A stretch of DNA of 32,440 bases, from contig DAHUYF010000063.1 of the NCBI GenBank assembly GCA_027315365.1, positions 1 to 32,440 of the forward strand, read 5' to 3'. This document shows positions 2,169-31,348 of the stretch, piece by piece. The translations under genes were made by a program, and so were the position numbers. Position 1 is the first letter of the stretch, and every line of letters begins with the position of its first letter. The stretch is from Rhodospirillales bacterium. Its GTDB lineage: Bacteria; Pseudomonadota; Alphaproteobacteria; ATCC43930; CGMCC-115725. The notes beneath the pieces were generated by a model. The model did no database searches and was not told where the DNA came from. It saw only the letters and a program-made list of their open reading frames with translations.

Positions 2169-2657
2169 TTATCCAGCGGCACCCCTGCGCTTTGCCGCCG
2201 CCAGCTTCACCGCCTGCACGATCTCGGGATAGGCGCCGCAGCGGCAGAGATTGCCGGCGAGATAATGCCGGATGTCGTCGTCGCCGGGATCGGGATGCTG
2301 CTCGAGCAGCTGCCGCGTCATCAGCACGAAGCCCGGGGTGCAGAAGCCGCATTGGAAGGCGCCGGCCTCGATGAAGGCCTGCTGCACCGGGTCGAGCGTG
2401 CCGTCGGCGTCGAGATGCTCGATCGTCGTCACCGCGCGGCCGTCGACCAGCGCCGCCAGCGCCAGGCAGGATGACACCGCCCGCCCGTCGACCAGCACGG
2501 TGCAGCAGCCGCAGAGCCCCTGGCCGCAGCTTTCGCGCGCGCCATAGAGCGCGAAGCGGTCGCGCAGCATGGTCACCAGGCTCTCTTGCGGCGCGACCTC
2601 GGCCGCGACCGTCCGGCCGTTGAGGGTGAAGCGGATGGTTCGCGGCGCGGCGCTCAT
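2169..2657 (-). CDS. [2Fe-2S] subunit of a xanthine-dehydrogenase-family molybdoenzyme
   Basis: A 162-residue electron-transfer subunit of the CoxS/XdhA-small type. The N-terminal plant-ferredoxin-like domain carries C44, C49, C52 and C64 (pattern C-x4-C-x2-C-x11-C). The C-terminal four-helix domain carries C103, C106, C138 and C140 in CGFC and CRC motifs. Both clusters are complete, so electrons can pass from the molybdenum subunit to the FAD subunit. The ATG at 2657 follows the large-subunit stop by one base, with GAGGA just upstream, which implies translational coupling. A much longer open frame upstream of this start overlaps the large subunit and is not coding. Confidence 0.93.
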   Translation of the reverse strand: MSAAPRTIRFTLNGRTVAAEVAPQESLVTMLRDRFALYGARESCGQGLCGCCTVLVDGRAVSSCLALAALVDGRAVTTIEHLDADGTLDPVQQAFIEAGAFQCGFCTPGFVLMTRQLLEQHPDPGDDDIRHYLAGNLCRCGAYPEIVQAVKLAAAKRRGAAG

Positions 2658-2658
2658 C

Positions 2659-4941
2659 TCATTCCTCCGCGAGACTGTCGCCGGCGGCGGCTCGGATCGC
2701 GCGATAGATCGCTTCCGGCGTGAGCGGCAGCGAGGTGAGCCGCACGCCGACGGCGTCGTGGATGGCGTTGGCGATGGCGGGCGAGACGCCGAAGGTGCCG
2801 CTCTCGCCGACGCCCTTGGCGCCGAAGGGACCGCTGTGCTGGGAAGCCGCCACCGTCTCGCTCTCGATCCGCGCCGGCAGGTCGCCCAGCCCCGGGATCT
2901 TGTAATCGGCGAAGGACGGGTTCTTGAGCTGGCCGTCGCGGTCGAACTCCATGCTTTCCAGCAGGGTGAATCCGAGCTGCATGATGGCGGCGCCCGACAG
3001 CTGCGTCTCGACGATGCGCGGATTGAGCGGCGTGCCGACATCGGCGACGGTGACCAGCCGCAGCAGCCGCACCCGGCCGGTCTCGCTGTCGACCTCGAGC
3101 TCGACCCCCGTGGCGCCCACCATCCAGAACGGCGTGGCGTTGTCGGTGAGCCCGGTCGCAAGGTCGGGCGGCGCATAGCTCGGCAGGAAGCTTGCGGTGC
3201 CGATGATCGTGCCCGCCTGCATGCCGTAGCGGCGGCGGAACAGCTCGGCGATCTCGACATTGGCGCCCGGCGGCAATCCCAGCTCGGCGGCGAGCGCCGC
3301 GAGCTTGTCGCGCGCATCCTCGGCGGCGCGCTTCACTGCATTCCCCATATGGAAGGTCGAGCGCGAGCCCAGCGTCGCCATGTCATAGGGCGTCACGTCG
3401 GTGTCGGGATGGACGATGCGCACCGATTCCGCCGGGAGGTTCAGCACCTCGGCGGCGATCTGCGCCATCGCCGTGTCGGAGCCCTGTCCCATATCGACGG
3501 TGCCGCACTGCACGGCACAGCTGCCGTCGGCGGCGATCGTCACCAGCGCCACCGAGGCGGTGGGCGAGATGCTCGCCTTGAAGCCCAGCGCGATGCCGCG
3601 GCCGCGCTTGACAGGCCCGGTGCCGCGCTCGAAAGGCCGGCCCCACTCGAGCTTCTGCGCCAACCGCTCCAGCACCGCGGCGATCGCCGCGTCGCGCATC
3701 ACCGTGCCGGTGGCCTGCGGCCTGCCCTCGCGCAGGATGTTGCGGCGGCGGAACTCCACGGGGTCGAGCGCCAGCGCCCGGGCGATCAGGTCGGTGTGGC
3801 TCTCATAGGCCCAGACCAGCTGCGGAATGCCGAAGCCGCGCAGCGCGCCGGCCGGCGGCCGGTTGGTGTAGAGCGCGACGCTGTCGATCGCCACGTTCTC
3901 GATGTCATAGGGCCCGGCGGCGGTGAAGCCCGATTTCTGCGTCACCCGCGGCCCGATATCGGCATAGGCGCCGCCGTTCCACCACACCTCGCAGCGCCGC
4001 GCGGTGATGCGGCCGTCGCGGTCGACCGCGCTCTTGATGCGCACGGTGCAGGCATGCCGCGTGATGGTATAGAACTGCTCCTCCATGGTGAGCGACACCT
4101 TCACCGGCCGGCGCGCCAGCAGCGCCAGCGCGGTCACCAGCGCCTCAAGCTTGATATAGAGCTTGGCGCCAAAGCCGCCGCCGAGATAGGCCGTCCGCAC
4201 CCGCACCCGGTTCTCCGGCCAGCCGAGCAGCCGCGCGATCTCGATGCGCACGAAGGACGGGCTCTGCGACGCCGTGTGGATGGTTACCGACGCCTCCGTC
4301 GCCTCGGCCAGCGCCACCATCGGCTCGAGCGGCGTGTGCATCACCGGCTGGCTGCGGAAGCTGTGCTCGAAGACCTGCCCGGCCGCCGCGAAGGCACGCT
4401 CGACATCGCCGCGCCGGAGCCGGAACTCGAGCGCCACATTGGTGCCGCGCTTGCCGCCGAGATGCTTGAGATCGGCAAACGTGCCGGCGGGCTTCAGCGC
4501 CTCGTGCACCAGCACCGGCGAGGTCGCCGCCTCGACCTCGTCGAAGATGCCGGGCAGTTCGTCATACTCGACCGTCACCAGCTGCGCCGCCGCCTCGGCG
4601 ATGGCGGCATCGGCGGCCAGCACCGCCGCCACCGGCTCGCCGATATGGCGCACCTTGTCGATGGCGAGGATCGGCTGGTCATGGAAGGCCGGCCCGTAAT
4701 AGGGGCTCGGGATGATCTGCCGCACCTCGGCACTGGTGATCACGGCATGGACCCCGGCCATCGCCCGGGCGGCCTCGGCATCGATGCGGCGGATGGTGCC
4801 GTGGGCGATCGGGCTGCGCACCAGCTTGCCGTAAAGCATGCCGGGAAGCTGCAGATTGTGGATGTACTCGGCCCGCCCCGTGACCTTGGCGCGGGCTTCG
4901 AGCCGCGGCAGCGAGCGGCCGACCTGGCGGGCGGCCCTCAC
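2659..4941 (-). CDS. Molybdopterin-binding catalytic subunit, xanthine-dehydrogenase family
   Basis: A 760-residue molybdenum hydroxylase large subunit. It starts with the usual G-R-S-L-P-R-x-E-A-x-x-K-V-T-G segment. It carries the cofactor-binding GGGFGAK at 254-260, the second loop GALRGFG at 365-371 and the catalytic glutamate E713 in KGVGESGTFG. Such enzymes hydroxylate purines, aldehydes or N-heteroaromatics with water as the oxygen source. The CO dehydrogenase loop A-Y-x-C-S-F-R is absent, so it is not a form I CO dehydrogenase. The GTG start shares a GTGA overlap with the FAD-subunit stop; the open frame upstream of it is a shadow. The enzyme appears cytoplasmic, as no Tat signal is present. 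The substrate is unknown, but the adjoining aromatic-acid-type transporter points to an aromatic or heteroaromatic compound. Confidence 0.92.
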   Translation of the reverse strand: MRAARQVGRSLPRLEARAKVTGRAEYIHNLQLPGMLYGKLVRSPIAHGTIRRIDAEAARAMAGVHAVITSAEVRQIIPSPYYGPAFHDQPILAIDKVRHIGEPVAAVLAADAAIAEAAAQLVTVEYDELPGIFDEVEAATSPVLVHEALKPAGTFADLKHLGGKRGTNVALEFRLRRGDVERAFAAAGQVFEHSFRSQPVMHTPLEPMVALAEATEASVTIHTASQSPSFVRIEIARLLGWPENRVRVRTAYLGGGFGAKLYIKLEALVTALALLARRPVKVSLTMEEQFYTITRHACTVRIKSAVDRDGRITARRCEVWWNGGAYADIGPRVTQKSGFTAAGPYDIENVAIDSVALYTNRPPAGALRGFGIPQLVWAYESHTDLIARALALDPVEFRRRNILREGRPQATGTVMRDAAIAAVLERLAQKLEWGRPFERGTGPVKRGRGIALGFKASISPTASVALVTIAADGSCAVQCGTVDMGQGSDTAMAQIAAEVLNLPAESVRIVHPDTDVTPYDMATLGSRSTFHMGNAVKRAAEDARDKLAALAAELGLPPGANVEIAELFRRRYGMQAGTIIGTASFLPSYAPPDLATGLTDNATPFWMVGATGVELEVDSETGRVRLLRLVTVADVGTPLNPRIVETQLSGAAIMQLGFTLLESMEFDRDGQLKNPSFADYKIPGLGDLPARIESETVAASQHSGPFGAKGVGESGTFGVSPAIANAIHDAVGVRLTSLPLTPEAIYRAIRAAAGDSLAEE

Positions 4942-5822
4942 CGTGTCTCTCCCGCCGCCGGCAGATCGAGAAGCCGCGCCAGCGCGCGGCGCAGCTCCAC
5001 CTCGAGCAGCCGGCGCTTGTAGGCCGAGGAGCCGCGGGCATCGGCGATGATCGCCGCCGCCGCCTCCGCCGCCGCCACCCGCCCCGCCTCGCCGATGAGC
5101 GCCGCATCGGCCGTCCGCCCGGCGAGCAGGCTCTCCGCCTGGGCAAGACGCATCGGCCGCTCCGTCGCCGCCCCCAGCACGATGGTGGCGGCGCGGATCG
5201 CCGCGCCGTCCGCCTCGAGCGAGAGCGCCAGGCCCAGCGCCGGCCAGTCGTCGGCGGCGCGCGTCGTGCATTTGACGTAGAGCGCGCGCCGGCGCGGCTG
5301 CGGCGGCACGATCGCGGCGACGATGAGCTCGTCGCCGCGCAGCACCGTCTCGTAGTATCCCGAGACGAGGCCGTCGACCGGCAGCCGGCGCCGCCCGGCC
5401 GGCCCCTCGATCTCGACCTCGGCGCCGAGCGCGATCAGCACCGGCGGCAAATCCATATGCGGGTCGCCATGGGCGAGATTGCCGCCGACGGTGGCGACAT
5501 TGCGCACCCGCGGATTGGAATGGCGGCGCAGCGCCGCGGCGATCACCGGCGCCGCGCGCCGGATCTCGGGTGCGCGCTCCAGCTCGGCCAGCCGCACCAT
5601 GGCGCCGATCCGCAACTCGCCCGTGGGCGAGAGCGAGAGGCTCGCGACGTCGCCCGCCAGCGCATTGAGGCTGACCAGCCGCTTCGGCCGGAAGAAGCCC
5701 GACTTCATCATCAGCATCAGCGCCGTGCCGCCGGCGAACGCACGCACCGCGGAATCCTCGGGATCGAGCAGCGCGAGCGCCTCGCGGAGCGTGCCGGGCT
5801 CGACGAGATCGAACGGCATCAT
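4938..5822 (-). CDS. FAD-binding subunit of the molybdenum hydroxylase (CoxM-like)
   Basis: A 294-residue flavoprotein of the CoxM/XdhB type. The two FAD-contacting loops are visible: A-G-G-T at 30-33, and TVGGNLAHGDP at 111-121 followed by a D-L-P-P. The C-terminal CO-dehydrogenase flavoprotein domain follows, with the typical K-C-T-x-R-A-A-D-D-W-P. It transfers electrons from the [2Fe-2S] subunit to an acceptor. Two ATGs in tandem (5822 and 5819) begin MMPFDLVEPG, the usual family start; the ribosome site is weak. It is the first gene of the operon, giving the order FAD-Mo-FeS-transporter. It overlaps the molybdenum subunit by four bases. Confidence 0.92.
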   Translation of the reverse strand: MMPFDLVEPGTLREALALLDPEDSAVRAFAGGTALMLMMKSGFFRPKRLVSLNALAGDVASLSLSPTGELRIGAMVRLAELERAPEIRRAAPVIAAALRRHSNPRVRNVATVGGNLAHGDPHMDLPPVLIALGAEVEIEGPAGRRRLPVDGLVSGYYETVLRGDELIVAAIVPPQPRRRALYVKCTTRAADDWPALGLALSLEADGAAIRAATIVLGAATERPMRLAQAESLLAGRTADAALIGEAGRVAAAEAAAAIIADARGSSAYKRRLLEVELRRALARLLDLPAAGETR

Positions 5823-5956
5823 CGCGCCGCGCCCGCCGCCTTCCCGCCGGATGTCGTCCGTCCAGGCATCGTTCCGTCCTCTCCTGCCGGTCGTCGGCGT
5901 CCGCAGCGCCGATCTTGCTTCCGACCGTGAGTATAGGTCGCGTCGCGGCAACGGCA

Positions 5957-5986
5957 ACCGCACTGCGCTACACCGCACTGCGCTTA
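5957..5986. repeat. Tandem 15-bp direct repeat, possible operator
   Basis: The 13-mer ACCGCACTGCGCT occurs at 5957-5969 and again at 5972-5984, a start-to-start distance of 15 bases. The repeat lies in the gap between two divergent operons, about 45 bases upstream of the predicted -35 box of the quinoprotein gene. Closely spaced direct repeats are typical of sites for AraC-like or response-regulator proteins. No intact regulator gene is nearby. It could also be a chance tandem duplication. Confidence 0.45.
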
Positions 5987-6029
5987 ACGCCCCTTGCGCC
6001 GCCCGCGCCGGCACCGTTCAGGAACCGGC

Positions 6030-6179: not shown

Positions 6180-7943
6180 ATGCATCATACGAGGGCGATG
6201 GCATTCGCCGCGGCGATGGCTGCGGGAGCGCTGCTGACCGGCTGCGCTCAGCAGGAGACGGCGATGGCGCCAGCCGCCGCGCCGCAGGCGGCTGCGGCGG
6301 CGATGATGCCGGTGCCGCCGGACGGCGCGACCGGCGCCGACTGGACGAGCTATCACGGCACCTGGCGGGACTACGACTTCAGCAGCCTCGATCAGATCAA
6401 CACCGGCACGGTAAAGAACCTGCAGGTGGCCTGGACCCACGATCCCGGCCGCGACACCCGCGGCCTGCAATCGATGCCGCTGGCCGAGGGCGGCGTCCTC
6501 TACTACTCGGGCTCGTACAGCCGGGTCTACGCGCTCGACGGCGCCACCGGCAAGGTCATCTGGTCCTATTTCCCGAAGCTCGACGAGGGGCTCATCAAGC
6601 GGCAGACGCATTCGCCCTATAACCGCGGCGTCGCTCTGGGCCATGGCCGGGTCTATGTCGGCACGATGGATGGCCGGCTCATCGCCCTCGACCAGAAAAC
6701 CGGCAAGCCGGTCTGGGACACCAAGCTCATCAACTCGCAGAAGCTGACCGTGGGCTTCACCGGCGCCCCGATCGTCGTCAAGGACATGGTGGTGATCGGC
6801 GCCCAGGGCGGCGAGTGGCCCTATCGCGGCCCGATCTTCGGCGTCGACGCCAACACCGGCAAGAAGAAATGGACCTTCCTCACCGTGGCGCCCGACGCGA
6901 AGTCGCAAGCGACCTGGGGCCATAATTCCTGGCGCACCGGCGGCGGCGGCGGCTGGATGCCCGGCACCTATGACGCCGCGACCAACACGCTCTGGTGGGG
7001 CACCGCCAACCCGGCGCCGCTCTATGACTGGTCGGGAGCGGATTTCATGCACAACGGCGCCCGGCCCGGCAACAACCTCTATACCACCTCGGTCATCGCG
7101 CTCGATCCCGACACCGGCAAGCTCAAATTCTATCACCAGGAGCTGCCGCATGACGGCTGGGACTTCGACAGCGCCATCGGCGAGTTCGTGATGATCGACC
7201 AGGGCGGCAAGTCGTTGATCGTCCATCCCAACAAGAGCGGCTACATCTTCGTCTACAACCGCGGCGACGCCAGCCTGGTCAACGTCTGGCGCATCACCGA
7301 GAACAGCAACTTCGTTCAGAGCATCGATCCCAAGACCGGCGAGCTCATCGGACGGCGCGACTTCACCGCGGGCCATGTCGACCCGCCGCTCTGCCCGGCG
7401 ATCGACGGCGGCGTCAGCTGGAATTCGGGCGCTTATGATCCGCGCACCAACACTTGGTACAAGGTCGGCAACGAGTGGTGCATGGATCTGAAGGTGGTGA
7501 AGACCCGGCCCATCCTCGAGCCGCAGGCGCAACTCGACATCGGCGCCGATTTCCACGAAGTGCCGCCTCCCGGCGCCGACAAGCCCTGGGGCCATGTCGA
7601 CGCGCGCGACCCCGTCACCGGCCAGATCAAATGGCAGGTGAAGTTCAAGGAGCCGCCGATGGCGAGCCTCTTGGCGACGGCCGGCAACCTGCTCTTCGTA
7701 CCCGATGCCGAAGGCATGCTCCATGCCTATGATTCGCGCACCGGCAAGGAGCTGTGGTCGCATTCCGACGGCGTCGGCCATGATGGCGGCATCATGACCT
7801 ACGCCGCCAACGGCAAGCAGTACGTCGCCGTCGTCGCCGGCTGGGGCGGCATGGCGACCGACGGATTTCCCAAGATGTTCGGCGAGCCTTTCACCAGCAT
7901 GCCGCGCAACACCGGCGTGCTGACGGTCTATACGCTGAAATAA
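6180..7943 (+). CDS. PQQ-dependent alcohol dehydrogenase, lanthanide-type signature, predicted lipoprotein
   Basis: A 587-residue quinoprotein dehydrogenase with an eight-bladed propeller. It would oxidise an alcohol in the periplasm and pass electrons to cytochrome c. The signal sequence ends in the lipobox L-L-T-G-C (C22), followed by an Ala/Pro-rich tether to about residue 48, so it should be membrane-anchored. The metal and PQQ ligands align as E212 (GGEWPYRG), N277 (GTANPAP), catalytic D328 and D330 in WDFD, and K352. Asp at the +2 position (D-x-D) marks lanthanide-dependent enzymes such as XoxF and PedH; calcium enzymes have Ala or Ser there. The vicinal Cys-Cys pair seen in MxaF is absent, while the distal cysteines in LCPAIDGG and EWCMD remain. 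GGGAGG before the ATG at 6180 fixes the start. The substrate is unknown. Confidence 0.9.
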   Translation: MHHTRAMAFAAAMAAGALLTGCAQQETAMAPAAAPQAAAAAMMPVPPDGATGADWTSYHGTWRDYDFSSLDQINTGTVKNLQVAWTHDPGRDTRGLQSMPLAEGGVLYYSGSYSRVYALDGATGKVIWSYFPKLDEGLIKRQTHSPYNRGVALGHGRVYVGTMDGRLIALDQKTGKPVWDTKLINSQKLTVGFTGAPIVVKDMVVIGAQGGEWPYRGPIFGVDANTGKKKWTFLTVAPDAKSQATWGHNSWRTGGGGGWMPGTYDAATNTLWWGTANPAPLYDWSGADFMHNGARPGNNLYTTSVIALDPDTGKLKFYHQELPHDGWDFDSAIGEFVMIDQGGKSLIVHPNKSGYIFVYNRGDASLVNVWRITENSNFVQSIDPKTGELIGRRDFTAGHVDPPLCPAIDGGVSWNSGAYDPRTNTWYKVGNEWCMDLKVVKTRPILEPQAQLDIGADFHEVPPPGADKPWGHVDARDPVTGQIKWQVKFKEPPMASLLATAGNLLFVPDAEGMLHAYDSRTGKELWSHSDGVGHDGGIMTYAANGKQYVAVVAGWGGMATDGFPKMFGEPFTSMPRNTGVLTVYTLK

Positions 7944-7961
7944 GTCTCTAGCGAGCGTTTG

Positions 7962-7990
7962 AAGGGCGGGGCGAGCTTGCCCCGCCCTTT
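7962..7990 (+). terminator. Strong intercistronic hairpin
   Basis: AAGGGCGGGGC (7962-7972) pairs perfectly with GCCCCGCCCTT (7979-7989) around a six-base loop: an 11-bp stem followed by only a short T run. It lies 18 bases after the dehydrogenase stop and just before the cytochrome gene. It may partly terminate transcription or protect the 3' end of the dehydrogenase message, so that less cytochrome than dehydrogenase is made. Confidence 0.65.
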
Positions 7991-8008
7991 CGACGCCGGA
8001 GCGCCGAT

Positions 8009-8329
8009 ATGTCGAAATCCCTGCTCGGAATCGCCGCTGTCGCCCTCTGCCTCACCGCCGCGCCGGTCCTCGCCGCCGACAAGGGCGGCGGGATGAGCGA
8101 CGACGAGGTGGAAGGACTCTTCGCCTCCACCTGCGGTTTCTGCCATCAGGACGGCGGCCGCGTCGCCGGCAAGGGCCCGCAGCTCATGGGCACCAAGCGC
8201 AGCGACGCCTTCATCGTCAATCGCATCAAGCACGGCAAGGAAGGCTATATGCCGGCCTTCGGCCAGGCGTTGACCGATCGCGAGATCAAGGGCATCGTAC
8301 ACTACATCCGTCACCTGAAGCCGGATTGA
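8009..8329 (+). CDS. Small periplasmic c-type cytochrome, electron acceptor of the quinoprotein
   Basis: A 106-residue class I cytochrome c. A Sec signal peptide (about 1-22, cleaved after VLA) is followed by a mature domain with one haem site, C42-G-F-C45-H46, and a probable distal ligand M81 in GYMPAFG. It lies directly downstream of the PQQ dehydrogenase and upstream of a XoxJ-like protein, the position of xoxG in methanol dehydrogenase operons. It is therefore the likely direct electron acceptor of the dehydrogenase. GGAG at 7998-8001 precedes the ATG. The last bases overlap or abut the next gene. It is shorter than typical XoxG, so the name is not applied. Confidence 0.88.
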   Translation: MSKSLLGIAAVALCLTAAPVLAADKGGGMSDDEVEGLFASTCGFCHQDGGRVAGKGPQLMGTKRSDAFIVNRIKHGKEGYMPAFGQALTDREIKGIVHYIRHLKPD

Positions 8330-8331
8330 CC

Positions 8332-9105
8332 GTGTCGCGGGTTCACTCCCTCGCCATCTTCGCCGTGCTGCTGGCCGCTGCGCTCGCGTCGCCGGCGGCG
8401 GCGCGCAGCCTCGCGGACATCAAGGCGAGCGGCACCATCGCGCTCTGCGCCCATCCGAACTCGCTGCCCTTCGCCAGCAAGAACGGGGCCCGGCACGGCT
8501 TCCAGGTCGAGCTGGCCGAGGCGCTGGCGCGGCGGCTCGGCGTGAGCCTGACGCGCGACTGGGTGATCACGCGCTACGACCTGTTCCGCGCGCCCTGCGA
8601 CATCGTCATGGACAGCATCGCCGACCCCGAGGCGCAGGCGGATTCAGGGCTGCAGCTTTCCAAGCCCTATCGGCGCAGCGGAGTGGCGCTCGCGCTGCGC
8701 GCCGGCGAGAAGATCCACTCGCTCGACGACATCGGCCGGCGCAAGGTCGGCGTGCTGACCAGCTCGATCGCGGCGATGACGCTCAACAAGCGCGGCATCG
8801 ACACCGTGCCCGGCCTGTTCGAGGACGAGATCCTGACCATGCTGGCCACGCGGGAAATCGACGCGGCCGCGGTGACGCCGACCTCGGTGGGATATTTCAA
8901 CCTGCGGCATCCCGGCGCCAGGCTTGCGCTGATCTATGCCTTCGAGGGCGACCCCGATCTCGCCTGGAATGTCGCCGTCGGCATGCGGCGGCCGGACGCG
9001 GCGCTGCATCAGGCGATCGACGCGGCGCTGACCCGTCTTCTCGCCGACGGCACGGTGACGCGCATCTACGCCCGCTACGGCGTCGCGGTCCAGCCGCCGA
9101 GCTAG
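8332..9105 (+). CDS. Quinoprotein-associated periplasmic binding protein (MxaJ/XoxJ-like)
   Basis: A 257-residue periplasmic protein of the family 3 solute-binding fold, with a signal peptide ending in PAAARS. The segments L-C-A-H-P-N-S-L-P-F, GFQVELAEALARRLG, the late RKVGVLTSS and the TVTRIYARYGV terminus match the group of substrate-binding proteins found beside quinoprotein dehydrogenases (MxaJ/XoxJ). XoxJ is thought to help activate or assemble the dehydrogenase and not to serve an ABC transporter; no ABC genes are present here. Two cysteines (ALCAHP and APCDIV) may form a disulfide. Starts at TTG 8326 or GTG 8332 are both possible; I chose GTG because the other overlaps the cytochrome stop. 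Confidence 0.82.
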   Translation: MSRVHSLAIFAVLLAAALASPAAARSLADIKASGTIALCAHPNSLPFASKNGARHGFQVELAEALARRLGVSLTRDWVITRYDLFRAPCDIVMDSIADPEAQADSGLQLSKPYRRSGVALALRAGEKIHSLDDIGRRKVGVLTSSIAAMTLNKRGIDTVPGLFEDEILTMLATREIDAAAVTPTSVGYFNLRHPGARLALIYAFEGDPDLAWNVAVGMRRPDAALHQAIDAALTRLLADGTVTRIYARYGVAVQPPS

Positions 9106-22655: not shown

Positions 22656-22694
22656 TTGAGGATCCGCCAACGGGTCCCCATAACAAGACGATGA
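22656..22694 (+). other. Possible leader peptide coupled to moaA
   Basis: GGGAGGA at 22646-22652 is followed by a TTG that opens a 12-codon frame ([12 protein letters not shown]). Its TGA overlaps the moaA ATG as ATGA. moaA itself has no good ribosome site, so coupled re-initiation is possible. The spacing between GGGAGGA and the TTG is short (3 bases), which makes this tentative. Confidence 0.2.
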
Positions 22695-23683
22695 TCGACC
22701 CCTACGGCCGACATATCAGCTATCTTCGCGTCTCGGTCACCGACCGATGCGACTTCCGCTGTCTTTATTGCATGGCGGAAGACATGACCTTTCTGCCGAA
22801 ATCGGAAGTGCTGACGCTGGAAGAACTCGACCGGCTGTGCAGCGCCTTCGTGCGCCTCGGCGTGCGCAAGCTCCGCCTCACCGGCGGCGAGCCGCTGGTG
22901 CGCCGCAACATCCTGTCGCTGGTGCGTGCGCTCGGCCGGCACCTGGAAAGCGGCGCGCTGGACGAGCTCACGCTGACCACCAACGGCAGCCAGCTCGCGC
23001 GCTACGCGGCGGAGCTCAAGGACGCCGGCGTGCGGCGGATCAACGTCTCGCTCGACACGCTCGACCCGGCGAAGTTCACCGCGATCACCCGCTGGGGCAA
23101 GCTCGACAAGGTGCTGGAGGGCCTCGACGCCGCCAAGCGCGCCGGGCTCCAGGTCAAGATCAACGCGGTGGCGCTGCGCGGCGTCAACGACGACGAGTTC
23201 GACGGGCTGGTGCGCTGGTGCGGCGAGCAGGGCTTCGATCTCGTCTTCATCGAGGTCATGCCGCTGGGCGAGATCGGCGCCGATGCGCGGCTCGACCAGT
23301 ACCTGCCGCTCTCCATGGTGCGGGCATCGCTGCAGCGGCGCTGGACGCTCGACGAGACCGATTACCGCACCGGCGGACCGGCACGCTACTACGTCGTGCG
23401 CGAGACCGGACGGCGGCTCGGCATGATCACGCCGCTCACCCATAATTTCTGCGAGAGCTGCAATCGCGTGCGGCTGACCTGCACCGGCACGCTCTTCATG
23501 TGCCTCGGCCAGGAGGACGCCGCCGATCTGCGCGCGCCGCTGCGCCTCTCCGAAAGCGACGATCTGCTCGAGCCGGCGATCCGCGCCGCGATCGCGCGCA
23601 AGCCCAAGGGTCACGATTTCGTGATCGACCGCCGGCACAACCGGCCGGCGGTGAGCCGGCATATGAGCGTCACCGGCGGGTGA
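22691..23683 (+). CDS. moaA: GTP 3',8-cyclase MoaA
   Basis: A 330-residue radical-SAM enzyme that converts GTP to 3',8-cyclo-dihydro-GTP, the first step of molybdopterin synthesis. The SAM cluster is C20-x3-C24-x2-C27; the second GTP-binding cluster is C254, C257 and C271 in [11 protein letters not shown]. The GG C-terminus needed for activity is present (TGG end). The TGGEPL strand is intact. The ATG gives the standard M-I-D-P-Y-G-R[13 protein letters not shown] start. It leads a compact plus-strand group with nadK, argE and a zinc hydrolase. Confidence 0.96.
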
Positions 23684-27651: not shown

Positions 27652-27726
27652 CCCACCTCACCCCACCCCTCTCCGCCCCCAAGGGGCGGAGAGGGAGGGA
27701 CCCGCGCAGCGGGAGGGTGAGGTGGG
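27652..27726. repeat. Nested palindromic repeat (outer stem with two inner hairpins)
   Basis: An outer stem of CCCACCTCACCC (27652-27663) and GGGTGAGGTGGG (27715-27726) encloses two hairpins. The first is CCCTCTCCGCCCC/GGGGCGGAGAGGG (27667-27679, 27683-27695), a perfect 13-bp stem. The second is CCCGC/GCGGG (27701-27705, 27709-27713). A related partial copy lies at 26681-26724. The compound fold is typical of a dispersed intergenic element. Confidence 0.75.
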
Positions 27727-27802
27727 AGTCGATGATCCCGCGCTGTCTCAGTCATTTGCGATGTGCACCGCCGACAGAAGATGCTCGCCGCGGGGCGCGG
27801 CA

Positions 27803-27831
27803 TTGTCACGCGGTTGGAATCTTCCTAAGCT
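27803..27831 (+). promoter_or_regulatory. Candidate promoter of the indolepyruvate oxidoreductase gene
   Basis: TTGTCA at 27803-27808 matches the -35 consensus in five of six positions. It is 17 bases from TAAGCT at 27826-27831, which matches the -10 in three of six. Transcription would begin near 27838, giving a leader of about 28 bases to the ATG at 27866. Confidence 0.45.
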
Positions 27832-27865
27832 CGCCGTGGGCGAAGGAAAAGCGAGGGAGACGGGC

Positions 27866-30800
27866 ATGCAGCTCGCCGCGGTCACGCTCGACGACAAATA
27901 CACGCTGCAGACCGGCCGCATCTATCTCTCGGGGGTCCAGGCGCTGGTGCGCCTGCCGATGCTGCAGCGCCAGCGCGACCAGGCGGCAGGCCTCGTCACC
28001 GGCGGCTTCATCTCGGGATATCGCGGCTCGCCGCTCGGCACCTATGACAATGCGCTGTGGCAGGCGCGGCCTCATCTCAAGCAGAACAACATCCATTTCC
28101 AGCCGGGCCTCAACGAGGACCTGGCGGCGACCGCGCTCTGGGGCAGCCAGCAGGTCAACCTGTTCCCCGGCGCGACGGTCGACGGCGTCTTCGGCATCTG
28201 GTACGGCAAGGGTCCCGGCGTCGACCGCTCGGTCGACCCGCTGAAGCACGCCAACGCCGCCGGCACCTCGCGCCATGGCGGCGTCCTCGCCATCGCCGGC
28301 GACGATCACGGCTGCCAATCCTCGACGCTGGCGCATCAGAGCGAGCAGATCTTCGAGGCGGCGATGCTCCCGATCCTGAACCCGGCGACGGTGCAGGAAT
28401 ATCTCGATTTCGGCCTGTACGGCTTCGCGCTGTCGCGCTTCTCGGGCTGCTGGGTGGGCTTCAAGGCGATCGCCGAGACGGTGGAGAGCAGCGCCTCGGT
28501 GCAGATCGATCCGGCGCGGCACGATTTCGTGCTGCCGCAGGATTTCGCGATGCCGCCGGACGGCCTCAACATCCGCTGGCCCGACCCGCCGCTCGACGCC
28601 GAGCGCCGGCTGCACGGGCCGAAGATGGCGGCGGTGGCCGCCTTCGCCCGCGCCAACCGCGTCGACCGGCTGGAGATCGACCCGCCCGCGGCGCGCCTGG
28701 GCATCATCACCACCGGCAAGGCCTATCTCGACGTGCGCCAGGCGCTCGCCGATCTCGGCATCGACGACAAGGCCGCGCAGGCGCTCGGCATCCGACTTTA
28801 CAAGGTCGGCCTCACCTGGCCGCTCGAGGCGCAGGGCGCGCGGCGCTTCGCCGAGGGCCTGCGCGACGTGCTGGTGATCGAGGAGAAGCGCGGCTTCATC
28901 GAGAGCCAGCTCGTGCGCCTGCTCTACAACCTCGACGCGGCGCGGCGCCCGAGCGTCGTCGGCAAGGCGGACGAGAGCGGCGCGCCGCTGCTGCCGAGCG
29001 CCGGCGAGCTCACCCCCACCGTGGTGGCGCGCGCGATCGTGCTGCGCCTCAAGCGGCTGGGCGAGGAGAGCCCGCACCTCACCCAGCGCCTGGCGCGGCT
29101 CGAATCCTTCGAGAAGATGCTGGAGGCGCCGCTGCCGGCGACGCAGCGCACGCCGTTCTTCTGCTCCGGCTGTCCGCACAACACCTCGACCCGCGTGCCC
29201 GAGGGCAGCCGCGCCCAGGCCGGCATCGGCTGCCACGCCATGGCGATGTACGTGCCGTCGCGCAACACCCAGACGATCACCCATATGGGCGGGGAAGGCG
29301 CCAACTGGATCGGCCAGGCGCCGTTCACCCGCGACACGCATGTCTTCCAGAATCTCGGCGACGGCACCTATTCGCACAGCGGCCTGCTCGCCATCCGCGC
29401 CGCCGCCGTGTCCGGCGTCAACATCACCTACAAGATCCTGTTCAACGACGCCGTGGCGATGACCGGCGGCCAGCCGGTCGAAGGCCACCTCACCGTGCCG
29501 CAGGTCACGCGCCAGGTGATGGCCGAAGGCGCCAGGCGCGTCGTCGTCGTCACCGACGAGCCCGAAAAATATCCCGCCGACGCCGGCTTCGCGCCGGGCG
29601 TCGAGATCCGCCACCGCGACGCGCTCGACGAGGTGCAGCGCGCGCTGCGCGAGACGCCGGGCCTCACCGTGCTGGTCTACGACCAGACCTGCGCCGCGGA
29701 AAAGCGCCGGCGGCGCAAGCGCGGCCAGTTCCCCGACCCGCCCAGGCGCGTCTTCATCAACGAACGCGTCTGCGAAGGCTGCGGCGACTGCTCGGAGAAG
29801 TCGAACTGCGTCTCGGTGAAGCCGGTCGAGACCGAGTTCGGGCGCAAGCGCGCCATCGACCAGTCGAACTGCAACAAGGACTTCTCCTGCATCAAGGGCT
29901 TCTGCCCGAGCTTCGTCACCGTCCATGGCGGCCAGCCGCGCAAGCTGCGCAAATCCGCCGCCGCGGTGGCCGACGACCCCTTCGCCTCCCTGCCGCTGCC
30001 GCAGCAGCGGCCGCTGGGCGACGCCTATGGCATCCTCGTCACCGGCATCGGCGGCACCGGCGTCATCACCCTGGGCGCGCTCCTCGGCATGGCGGCGCAT
30101 CTCGAGGGCAAGGGCTGCACCGTGCTCGACTTCACCGGCCTGTCGCAGAAGAACGGCGCGGTGATGAGCCATGTGCGCCTGGCGCCGCAGCCCGAGGACC
30201 TCCATGCCGTGCGCATCGCCGCCGGCGGCGCCGACCTGCTGCTCGGCTGCGACATGGTGGTGGCGGCGAGCCCGGCGGCGCTGTCGCGGGTCGAGCACGG
30301 CGTGACCCGCGCCATCGTCAACTCCTACCTGGCGCCGACCGCCGCCTTCGTCGTCAACCCCGACATCGATTTCGAGACGCTCGCCATGCAGCGCGCGCTC
30401 AAGGCGGCGGCGGGCGATGGCGGCGCCGAGTTCCTCGACGGCACCGAGCTGGCCACCGCGCTGATGGGCGACAGCATCGCCACCAACCTGTTCATGCTGG
30501 GCTACGCCTTCCAGAAAGGGCTGGTGCCGCTGAGCCTCGCGGCCATCGAGCGCGCCATCGAGCTGAACGGCGTCGCCGTCGACGCCAACAAGCGCACCTT
30601 CGCCTGGGGCCGGCTCGCCGCTCATGACCGCGCCCGGGTCGAGGCGCTGGTGCGGCCGGCGCTGCACGAGGAGGCGCCGGCGGCGCCGGGCCTCGCCGAT
30701 CTCGTCGAGCGCCGCGCCCGCTTCCTGGCGGACTATCAGGACGCCGCCTATGCCCGGCGCTATCGCGACGCCGTGGCGTCGATCGAGGCGGCCGAGAAGG

Positions 30801-31348
30801 CGCGCGGTCGCGGCCTCTCCGGCCTCGCCGAGGCGGTCGCGCGCAACCTCTTCAAGCTGATGGCCTACAAGGACGAATACGAGGTGGCGCGGCTCTACAC
30901 CGACGGCGCCTTCCTGCGCCAGCTCCAGCAGCAGTTCGAAGGCGATTTCCGCCTCGAATTCCACTTGGCGCCGCCGCTTTTCGCCAGGCGCGATCCCGCC
31001 ACCGGCGAGTTGCTCAAGCGCGGCTACGGTCCCTGGGTGTTCGCCGCCTTCCGGCTGCTGGCGCGCCTCAAGCGGCTGCGCGGCACGCCCTTCGACATGT
31101 TCGGCCGGACGGCCGAGCGCAAGCACGAACGCCGGCTCATCGCGGACTACCAGGCGGTGATCGCCGAGCTTGCTGCCGCGCTCACTCCCGACAACCACGC
31201 GCTCGCCGTCGAGATCGCGCGCGTGCCGGAGCGGATCCGCGGCTACGGCCACGTCAAGGAGCGCAACCTCGCCGCCGCCAAGGCGCGCGAAGCGGCGCTG
31301 CTGGCGGCGTTCCGCTCCCCGGCGTCGCGGGCGACGGCGGCGGAGTAG
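27866..31348 (+). CDS. Fused indolepyruvate ferredoxin oxidoreductase (alpha-gamma fusion)
   Basis: A 1160-residue one-chain oxidoreductase that decarboxylates indolepyruvate and other aryl-pyruvates to acyl-CoA, feeding electrons to ferredoxin. Domains: an N-terminal pyrimidine domain (G-F-I-S-G-Y-R-G-S-P-L-G); a cysteine motif C-S-G-C-P-H-N-T-S-T; the thiamine pyrophosphate domain with G-I-G-C-H-A-M, GGEGANWIGQ and GDG...N (N-L-G-D-G-T-Y-S and I-L-F-N-D-A-V-A-M-T-G-G-Q); a cysteine-rich cluster region with C-E-G-C-G-D-C and K-G-F-C-P-S-F; and a gamma domain beginning GIGGTGVITLG. The C-terminal part is a DUF6537-type tail. GAGGGAGA at 27853-27860 fixes the ATG. It is monocistronic with its own promoter. 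Confidence 0.93.
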   Translation: MQLAAVTLDDKYTLQTGRIYLSGVQALVRLPMLQRQRDQAAGLVTGGFISGYRGSPLGTYDNALWQARPHLKQNNIHFQPGLNEDLAATALWGSQQVNLFPGATVDGVFGIWYGKGPGVDRSVDPLKHANAAGTSRHGGVLAIAGDDHGCQSSTLAHQSEQIFEAAMLPILNPATVQEYLDFGLYGFALSRFSGCWVGFKAIAETVESSASVQIDPARHDFVLPQDFAMPPDGLNIRWPDPPLDAERRLHGPKMAAVAAFARANRVDRLEIDPPAARLGIITTGKAYLDVRQALADLGIDDKAAQALGIRLYKVGLTWPLEAQGARRFAEGLRDVLVIEEKRGFIESQLVRLLYNLDAARRPSVVGKADESGAPLLPSAGELTPTVVARAIVLRLKRLGEESPHLTQRLARLESFEKMLEAPLPATQRTPFFCSGCPHNTSTRVPEGSRAQAGIGCHAMAMYVPSRNTQTITHMGGEGANWIGQAPFTRDTHVFQNLGDGTYSHSGLLAIRAAAVSGVNITYKILFNDAVAMTGGQPVEGHLTVPQVTRQVMAEGARRVVVVTDEPEKYPADAGFAPGVEIRHRDALDEVQRALRETPGLTVLVYDQTCAAEKRRRRKRGQFPDPPRRVFINERVCEGCGDCSEKSNCVSVKPVETEFGRKRAIDQSNCNKDFSCIKGFCPSFVTVHGGQPRKLRKSAAAVADDPFASLPLPQQRPLGDAYGILVTGIGGTGVITLGALLGMAAHLEGKGCTVLDFTGLSQKNGAVMSHVRLAPQPEDLHAVRIAAGGADLLLGCDMVVAASPAALSRVEHGVTRAIVNSYLAPTAAFVVNPDIDFETLAMQRALKAAAGDGGAEFLDGTELATALMGDSIATNLFMLGYAFQKGLVPLSLAAIERAIELNGVAVDANKRTFAWGRLAAHDRARVEALVRPALHEEAPAAPGLADLVERRARFLADYQDAAYARRYRDAVASIEAAEKARGRGLSGLAEAVARNLFKLMAYKDEYEVARLYTDGAFLRQLQQQFEGDFRLEFHLAPPLFARRDPATGELLKRGYGPWVFAAFRLLARLKRLRGTPFDMFGRTAERKHERRLIADYQAVIAELAAALTPDNHALAVEIARVPERIRGYGHVKERNLAAAKAREAALLAAFRSPASRATAAE

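Follow-up and report, generated by a model that had tools for sequence, protein, structure and literature searches.

The question of how pyrroloquinoline quinone (PQQ) enzymes pass on electrons without a vicinal disulfide is raised by a clade of dehydrogenases, one of which is encoded in contig DAHUYF010000063.1 of a Rhodospirillales bacterium (GenBank assembly GCA_027315365.1). The whole stretch of 32,440 nucleotides was analysed and is called the window below. At positions 6180–9105, on the plus strand, it carries a three-gene cassette for a PQQ-dependent dehydrogenase, a small c-type cytochrome, and a protein resembling XoxJ. With moderate confidence, the dehydrogenase is read here as a periplasmic PQQ alcohol dehydrogenase that belongs to a clade of its own and probably uses a lanthanide. 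The cassette and the positions discussed in its dehydrogenase are as follows.

6180–7943, plus strand: PQQ-dependent dehydrogenase, 587 amino acids, eight-bladed propeller (open reading frame; PF01011; TIGR03075; structural model against PedH 6zcw)
6180–6245, plus strand: putative lipoprotein signal peptide with lipobox LLTGC, codon of Cys22 at 6243–6245 (prolipoprotein pattern match)
6246–6338, plus strand: tether rich in Ala, Pro, and Gln, approximately residues 23–53 (sequence; low model confidence in residues 1–51)
6606–6611, plus strand: T143-H144, at the site of the vicinal Cys-Cys of relatives (alignments)
6813–6815, plus strand: E212, predicted metal ligand (alignments)
7008–7010, plus strand: N277, predicted metal ligand (alignments)
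7161–7169, plus strand: D328-F-D330, catalytic Asp and extra Asp of the D-x-D signature (alignments)
7392–7394, plus strand: C405, first distal cysteine (invariant in 23 of 23 aligned sequences)
7479–7481, plus strand: C434, second distal cysteine (invariant in 23 of 23 aligned sequences)
8009–8329, plus strand: small periplasmic c-type cytochrome, 106 amino acids, one CGFCH haem site (codons 8132–8146), likely electron acceptor (PF13442, 53.4 bits)
8326–9105, plus strand: XoxJ/MxaJ-like periplasmic binding-fold protein, 259 amino acids, TTG start overlapping the cytochrome stop (TIGR03871; XoxJ 6onp)

The first gene product belongs to the PQQ dehydrogenase superfamily, as its PF01011 match reaches 230.7 bits (cut-off 26.7), and it falls outside the methanol/ethanol family as delimited by TIGR03075, for which it scores 437.7 bits against a curated cut-off of 480. 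An AlphaFold model of the protein—with a mean predicted local distance difference test (pLDDT) score of 76.1, and below 50 across residues 1–51—matches PedH 6zcw with a Z score of 44.4 and a root mean square deviation of 2.4 over 519 residues at 31% identity. Since the Z scores of 1kv9 and 1yiq differ from that of PedH by no more than one unit and those of the other listed quinoprotein alcohol dehydrogenases by no more than four, the fold gives no choice of subfamily. At the catalytic site the protein carries the motif PHDGWDFD, identical to that of PedH. The sequence-only reading of this DNA had described a PQQ dehydrogenase with E212, N277, D328, and D330, and its numbering proved correct. 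It had further noted the lack of adjacent cysteines and the retention of a distal pair, both of which are borne out by the alignments: RPCCDVINRG of PedH aligns with RQTHSPYNRG of the window enzyme, placing T143 and H144 where the vicinal cysteines would stand. The window enzyme contains three cysteines in total (22, 405, and 434); C405 and C434 correspond to the distal cysteines that occur in XoxF and MxaF but are missing from PedH.

Descent was examined in a maximum-likelihood tree of 73 rows and 546 columns, rooted on the glucose dehydrogenase Gcd of E. coli, which sits on a long branch. The tree included nine of 65 PedH-like loci and no sorbose, DON-type, or lupanine enzyme references; L127 (partial), L011 (protein identical to L016), L026, and L029 were left out, the latter two being read for residues. 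Clades A (19 rows, the window's included) and B (8 rows) unite in a single branch with support of 100/100 and a length of 0.59. The rows of XoxF, MxaF, PedH, ExaA, and quinohemoprotein alcohol dehydrogenases constitute a group of 33 (97/87) that excludes A and B, and the order of A and B relative to the other deep branches is unsettled in this tree. As judged from this topology, the window dehydrogenase is by descent neither XoxF nor PedH, falling in neither the XoxF nor the ExaF/PedH clade. Clades A and B are not nested among calcium enzymes, so that the separate branch proposed from sequence alone is upheld.

The residues that set this branch apart were counted in the same alignment. The vicinal Cys-Cys is absent from all 27 rows of clades A and B and present in 31 of 38 unclassified rows and 7 of 8 references; in the form CCDV or CCDI it also occurs in 65 of 65 PedH-like loci. 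D-x-D is found in 27/27 rows of A and B, in 28/38 unclassified rows (for nine of the 38, the retrieval patterns included a D-x-D peptide), and in 4/8 references, and both the Asn ligand and the distal cysteine pair are kept in 27/27 rows of A and B. Some rows had been retrieved by a short-peptide search in which one peptide spanned D-x-D. Of the 26 rows of A and B other than the window's, 13 came from whole-protein or profile searches and are therefore free of this bias, and all 13 carry D-x-D. All 19 rows of clade A keep the four metal ligands E, N, D, and D of XoxF and PedH as tabulated in PMC11845868. Since E, N, D-x-D, and C405/C434 recur in 19/19 clade-A rows and the cassette order in 12/12 other loci of subclade A1, the combination seen in the window is no chance assembly. 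A second small clade (L122 and L131–L134, from G069 and G067) also shows D-x-D, no Cys-Cys, and Asp in place of the Glu ligand; three of its copies lie near each other on one G067 contig.

The closest relatives of the window enzyme are found in other members of its genus (84–89% identity). Clade A further includes G031 (67%), Bradyrhizobium sp. Ec3.3 (68%), a Hyphomicrobiales and an Acetobacteraceae metagenome-assembled genome (MAG; 65% each), a Rhodococcus qingshengii plasmid (60%), G027 (61%), G019 (59%), Burkholderiales (50–52%), and three further genomes (L148–L150). Clade B, at 39–44% identity, is made up of Skermanella plasmids, Oxalobacteraceae, Polynucleobacter, Vibrionaceae, and two genomes of the window's own family. 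At a threshold of E 1e-150, a member was detected in four of the 397 genomes sampled from the phylum, the window's own included (genomes at least 90% complete, three best candidates scored per genome), and in 9 of 39 genomes of the window's family. The group is thus a real, rare, and separate clade of PQQ dehydrogenases. No description of clades A and B was found in the literature searched, although they may correspond to one of the numbered PQQ alcohol dehydrogenase types of Keltjens et al. (2014). The whole cassette also occurs in a Gram-positive host, on the Rhodococcus qingshengii CX-1 plasmid NZ_CP054209.1 (L106, 11878–16123), with an IS21 istB gene 10 kb upstream, and a dehydrogenase of the same identity lies on a plasmid of strain JCM 15477. 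The Rhodococcus plasmid cassette looks like a transfer from a Gram-negative donor.

The order of dehydrogenase, small cytochrome c, and XoxJ-like protein, likened earlier to xoxF-xoxG-xoxJ, was confirmed in the open reading frames of the window. The third protein matches XoxJ 6onp (E 1.6e-11) and the MoxJ/XoxJ model TIGR03871 at 70.7 bits, well short of the cut-off of 212; going by these scores, it is a distant member of the XoxJ family. The same order is encountered in all 12 of the other A1 loci whose sequence continues downstream, counting L140/G019, where the contig end cuts the last gene; the contig of the genus member L009/G003 ends at the dehydrogenase. In clade A2 (Burkholderiales, L019–L023) a similar cytochrome directly follows the dehydrogenase in 5/5 loci, and no XoxJ-like protein was found in the four loci that offer room for it. 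In clade B the cytochrome follows in 10/10 loci and the XoxJ-like protein is present in seven of the nine with room. Three partner cytochromes (L025, 6782–7243; L026, 1792–2256; L027, 7762–8151) bear CAGYCH or CAAYCH, that is, C-x3-C-H instead of C-x2-C-H.

PQQ use by the clade is supported by two neighbourhoods. In G027, pqqE (569.2 bits, cut-off 381) and pqqC (376.6 bits, cut-off 240) lie directly upstream of the cassette on the same strand, and on the Rhodococcus plasmid the cassette is followed by roughly half a gene for the outer-membrane receptor PqqU (306.6 bits, model positions 9–337 of 676). The genome of the window itself contains pqqE on contig C79 (574.2 bits). By analogy with the family, PQQ would sit within the propeller together with a metal, most likely a light lanthanide, held by E212, N277, D328, and D330. 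The metal would polarise PQQ, and D328 would serve as the base that takes a proton from the alcohol while a hydride is transferred to PQQ. The electrons would then leave singly to the adjacent cytochrome c without a vicinal disulfide, whose place is taken by T143-H144. The XoxJ-like protein may assist in loading PQQ and metal, as suggested by XoxJ.

In ExaA, the vicinal disulfide lies near PQQ and is linked, in the account given in PMC12997753, to electron transfer to cytochrome c550. Several sub-branches of this clade bear cysteine pairs at three other sites, each close to an active-site motif. All five members of clade A2 display GGELSGCCGPIF directly after the metal Glu, the Cys-Cys standing four residues past it; two sequences (L013 and L014) have a Cys-Cys in the AGWGG (Trp) loop; and 7 of 10 clade-B loci (L015, L147, L028–L030, L107, and L108) have a C-x-x-C ahead of the FSSPP/FTSPP strand. 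The remaining 12 A1 sequences that were read, among them that of the window, show no substitute pair. The relocated pairs may be redox rings. It is conceivable, although the idea is put forward as a speculative one, that a clade of lanthanide alcohol dehydrogenases lost the vicinal disulfide, uses a different path for electron transfer between PQQ and a dedicated cytochrome, and in some sub-branches later placed new cysteine pairs elsewhere. If so, the redox ring would be an exchangeable rather than a fixed part of these enzymes.

The window enzyme was compared with several known systems. With ExaF/PedH it shares the fold, the E-N-D-x-D ligands, and the WDFD motif, but it differs in having no vicinal Cys-Cys, a distal cysteine pair, a separate clade, and a lipobox at the level of its genus. 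With XoxF and its partners XoxG and XoxJ it shares E-N-D-x-D, the distal pair, and the gene order, whereas it lacks Cys-Cys, lies outside the XoxF/MxaF branch, and is accompanied by a XoxJ-like protein far below the model cut-off. Among PDB entries compared pairwise by phmmer, the top score (275 bits) is obtained with the type II quinohemoprotein alcohol dehydrogenases 1kb0 and 1kv9, which share with the window enzyme a Lys at a position occupied by Arg in MxaF, XoxF, and PedH. The type II enzymes carry a fused haem domain; they also differ in possessing Cys-Cys and D-x-T, and form a clade separate from that of the window enzyme. The quinoproteins of marine heterotrophic Thaumarchaeota, likened here by their published description and not by sequence comparison, are archaeal and are described in PMC7300363 as all being without Cys-Cys, with DYD or D-x-D in nine variants and predicted transmembrane domains in 19 of 21 families.

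Concerning the substrate, the acetoin dehydrogenase genes next to some clade-B relatives suggest a small alcohol or diol as a first guess for the window enzyme. In a clade-B Polynucleobacter MAG (L027, 3802–13525), the gene of a sigma-54 regulator lies within 6 kb, together with four genes arranged as would be expected for acoX-acoA-acoB-acoC. AcoC exceeds the cut-off of the acetoin dehydrogenase model NF011457 (444.9 bits vs 307) and acoB that of a pyruvate dehydrogenase E1-beta subfamily model; the remaining three, with no NCBIfam match over cut-off, are presumably acoR, acoX, and acoA, as assumed from their context. Homologues of the regulator, acoX, acoA, and acoB also lie beyond the cassette in the Vibrionaceae loci L028–L030. 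Altogether, aco homologues adjoin 4 of 10 clade-B loci—two lineages, three of the loci being close Vibrionaceae—and none of 18 clade-A loci, several loci of this count being short and three of the aco-less clade-B loci spanning less than 8 kb. As a control, homologues (E 1e-15) of the five Polynucleobacter aco proteins were found in 0 of 65 PedH-like loci. Quinoprotein alcohol dehydrogenases of Pseudomonas putida are reported in PMC8427195 to convert 2,3-butanediol to acetoin, PedE and PedH acting on the 2S,3S form. Because aco genes adjoin L027–L030 and the P. putida enzymes yield acetoin, 2,3-butanediol is a reasonable candidate substrate for some members of clade B; for the window enzyme it is only a lead.

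A number of observations weigh against the reading of the window enzyme as a lanthanide alcohol dehydrogenase. E. coli Gcd, an enzyme that has a membrane domain at its N-terminus and lacks a partner gene for cytochrome c, is known to depend on calcium or magnesium, and it too has D-x-D (HHDLWDMD) and no vicinal Cys-Cys. D-x-D as proof of the metal was rejected on this ground, and the motif leaves the metal unsettled. The window enzyme might hence depend on calcium or magnesium, or be promiscuous for metals, with D-x-D as an ancestral feature kept without lanthanide use, as in the membrane glucose dehydrogenase (m-GDH). This explanation gains from the frequency of D-x-D among the unclassified rows and from clade B, where the Glu ligand is kept in one row of eight and replaced by Asp in the other seven, so that an unchanged XoxF site is not to be assumed. 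In PMC11996626, Gcd (m-GDH) is described as capable of complexing Ca, Mg, Zn, and Sr; facultative lanthanide use is predicted for it there. On the other hand, Gcd is merely the outgroup of the tree, and in a distant alignment it shows N and V at the places of the E and N ligands, whereas all four XoxF/PedH ligands are retained throughout clade A; the explanation is regarded as somewhat unlikely. D-x-D without Cys-Cys was earlier reported, with function unknown, in marine heterotrophic Thaumarchaea (PMC7300363). Nor was a lanmodulin-like EF-hand protein found over cut-off in the window's genome by an EF-hand search, run without a lanmodulin model; its four matches were weak, and two of these lay side by side on contig C75. 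Weak XoxJ-like matches (E <1e-5) occur in 43 of 65 PedH-like control loci, and the order dehydrogenase-cytochrome-XoxJ-like is therefore not special by itself. Eight of the nine carriers in the window's family are incomplete drafts—of its 21 good genomes, the window's is the sole carrier—and binning error is possible for these eight. Lastly, in the part of the clade-A neighbourhoods that was scanned, no gene beyond the cassette recurred that could point to a substrate. Lanthanide use by the window dehydrogenase nevertheless appears reasonably probable from its metal site. The same genome encodes a XoxF (E 1.8e-285 against M. extorquens XoxF 6oc5) with a XoxJ approximately 0.85 kb downstream (285.7 bits, over cut-off), and the XoxF5 of Grimontia marina CECT 8713 is listed with La–Nd in PMC11845868. 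D-x-D has been used for counting lanthanide enzymes in metagenomes (PMC11996626). Since clades A and B keep D-x-D while another feature of tested alcohol dehydrogenases is missing, they offer a direct test of the reach of this rule. Such tests are possible without an uncultured organism, because records not marked as MAGs include Bradyrhizobium sp. Ec3.3 in clade A and G. marina CECT 8713 (L030) in clade B.

Other alternatives concern the substrate and the location of the enzyme. Gene order, D-x-D, and a distal cysteine pair common to XoxF and MxaF would suit a divergent methanol or formaldehyde dehydrogenase acting as a second XoxF, yet the position outside the XoxF/MxaF branch, the TIGR03075 score below cut-off, the XoxF with XoxJ already encoded in the genome, and the merely distant XoxJ-likeness of the helper protein make this very improbable. 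It is rather unlikely that the enzyme acts, in the manner of sorbose or glucose dehydrogenases, on larger substrates such as sugars, polyols, or hydroxy acids. This alternative finds some backing in the lack of Cys-Cys shared with Gcd and in clade-A neighbourhoods: an Oxalobacteraceae copy among the Burkholderiales (L023, 377–3462) lies near genes for a tripartite ATP-independent periplasmic (TRAP) transporter binding protein, a RuBisCO-like protein, and a short-chain dehydrogenase/reductase (L020 looks alike by eye), and G422, placed beside Bradyrhizobium in the tree, has hydantoinase A/B and a TRAP binding protein near the dehydrogenase. However, neighbours of this type vary among lineages, and in the family profile sorbose dehydrogenase and DON-type enzymes reach 264–271 bits, below the 401–411 of PedH. 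Elsewhere in clade A, a formamidase-like gene (G003) and a histidine kinase gene (G277) were noted. As to location, the sequence-only reading had pointed to a lipobox LLTGC with an Ala/Pro tether, which agrees with the prolipoprotein pattern (presumably PROSITE PS00013) matched at Cys22, and from it had proposed a membrane-anchored branch. The pattern occurs at Cys22 in the window and three other members of its genus (4/4) and in none of the 24 remaining sequences, all from outside the genus, among the 28 scanned; relatives at 50–68% identity have N-termini that resemble ordinary signal peptides, as judged by eye and not by a predictor. The membrane-anchored branch was therefore abandoned, the lipobox being a trait at the level of the genus. 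That the lipobox is accidental and the protein a soluble periplasmic enzyme, as in its relatives, would fit this distribution but is improbable: the other three members of the genus retain Cys22 despite identity at only 10–11 of 21 positions in residues 1–21, and a genus-specific Ala/Pro tether directly follows it (15–20 of 26 positions identical in residues 23–48, compared with 461–481 of 535 in the body). Because the lipobox is retained in all four genus members and absent elsewhere, lipidation at Cys22 is likely real and a trait of the genus rather than of the branch. The window's alcohol dehydrogenase and its counterparts in the genus would then be lipidated at Cys22 and held to a membrane by the flexible tether.

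The cassette is not alone in the window. Divergent from it, on the minus strand at 2169–6014, lies a three-part molybdenum hydroxylase of the xanthine dehydrogenase type, with a major facilitator superfamily transporter gene beyond. A functional link between this hydroxylase and the cassette was considered and rejected, as other genes stand beside the dehydrogenase in two genus members (L136 and L137). Further along, the window carries a moaA gene at 22691–23683 and, at 27722–31348, a gene for an indolepyruvate ferredoxin oxidoreductase family protein of 1208 amino acids.

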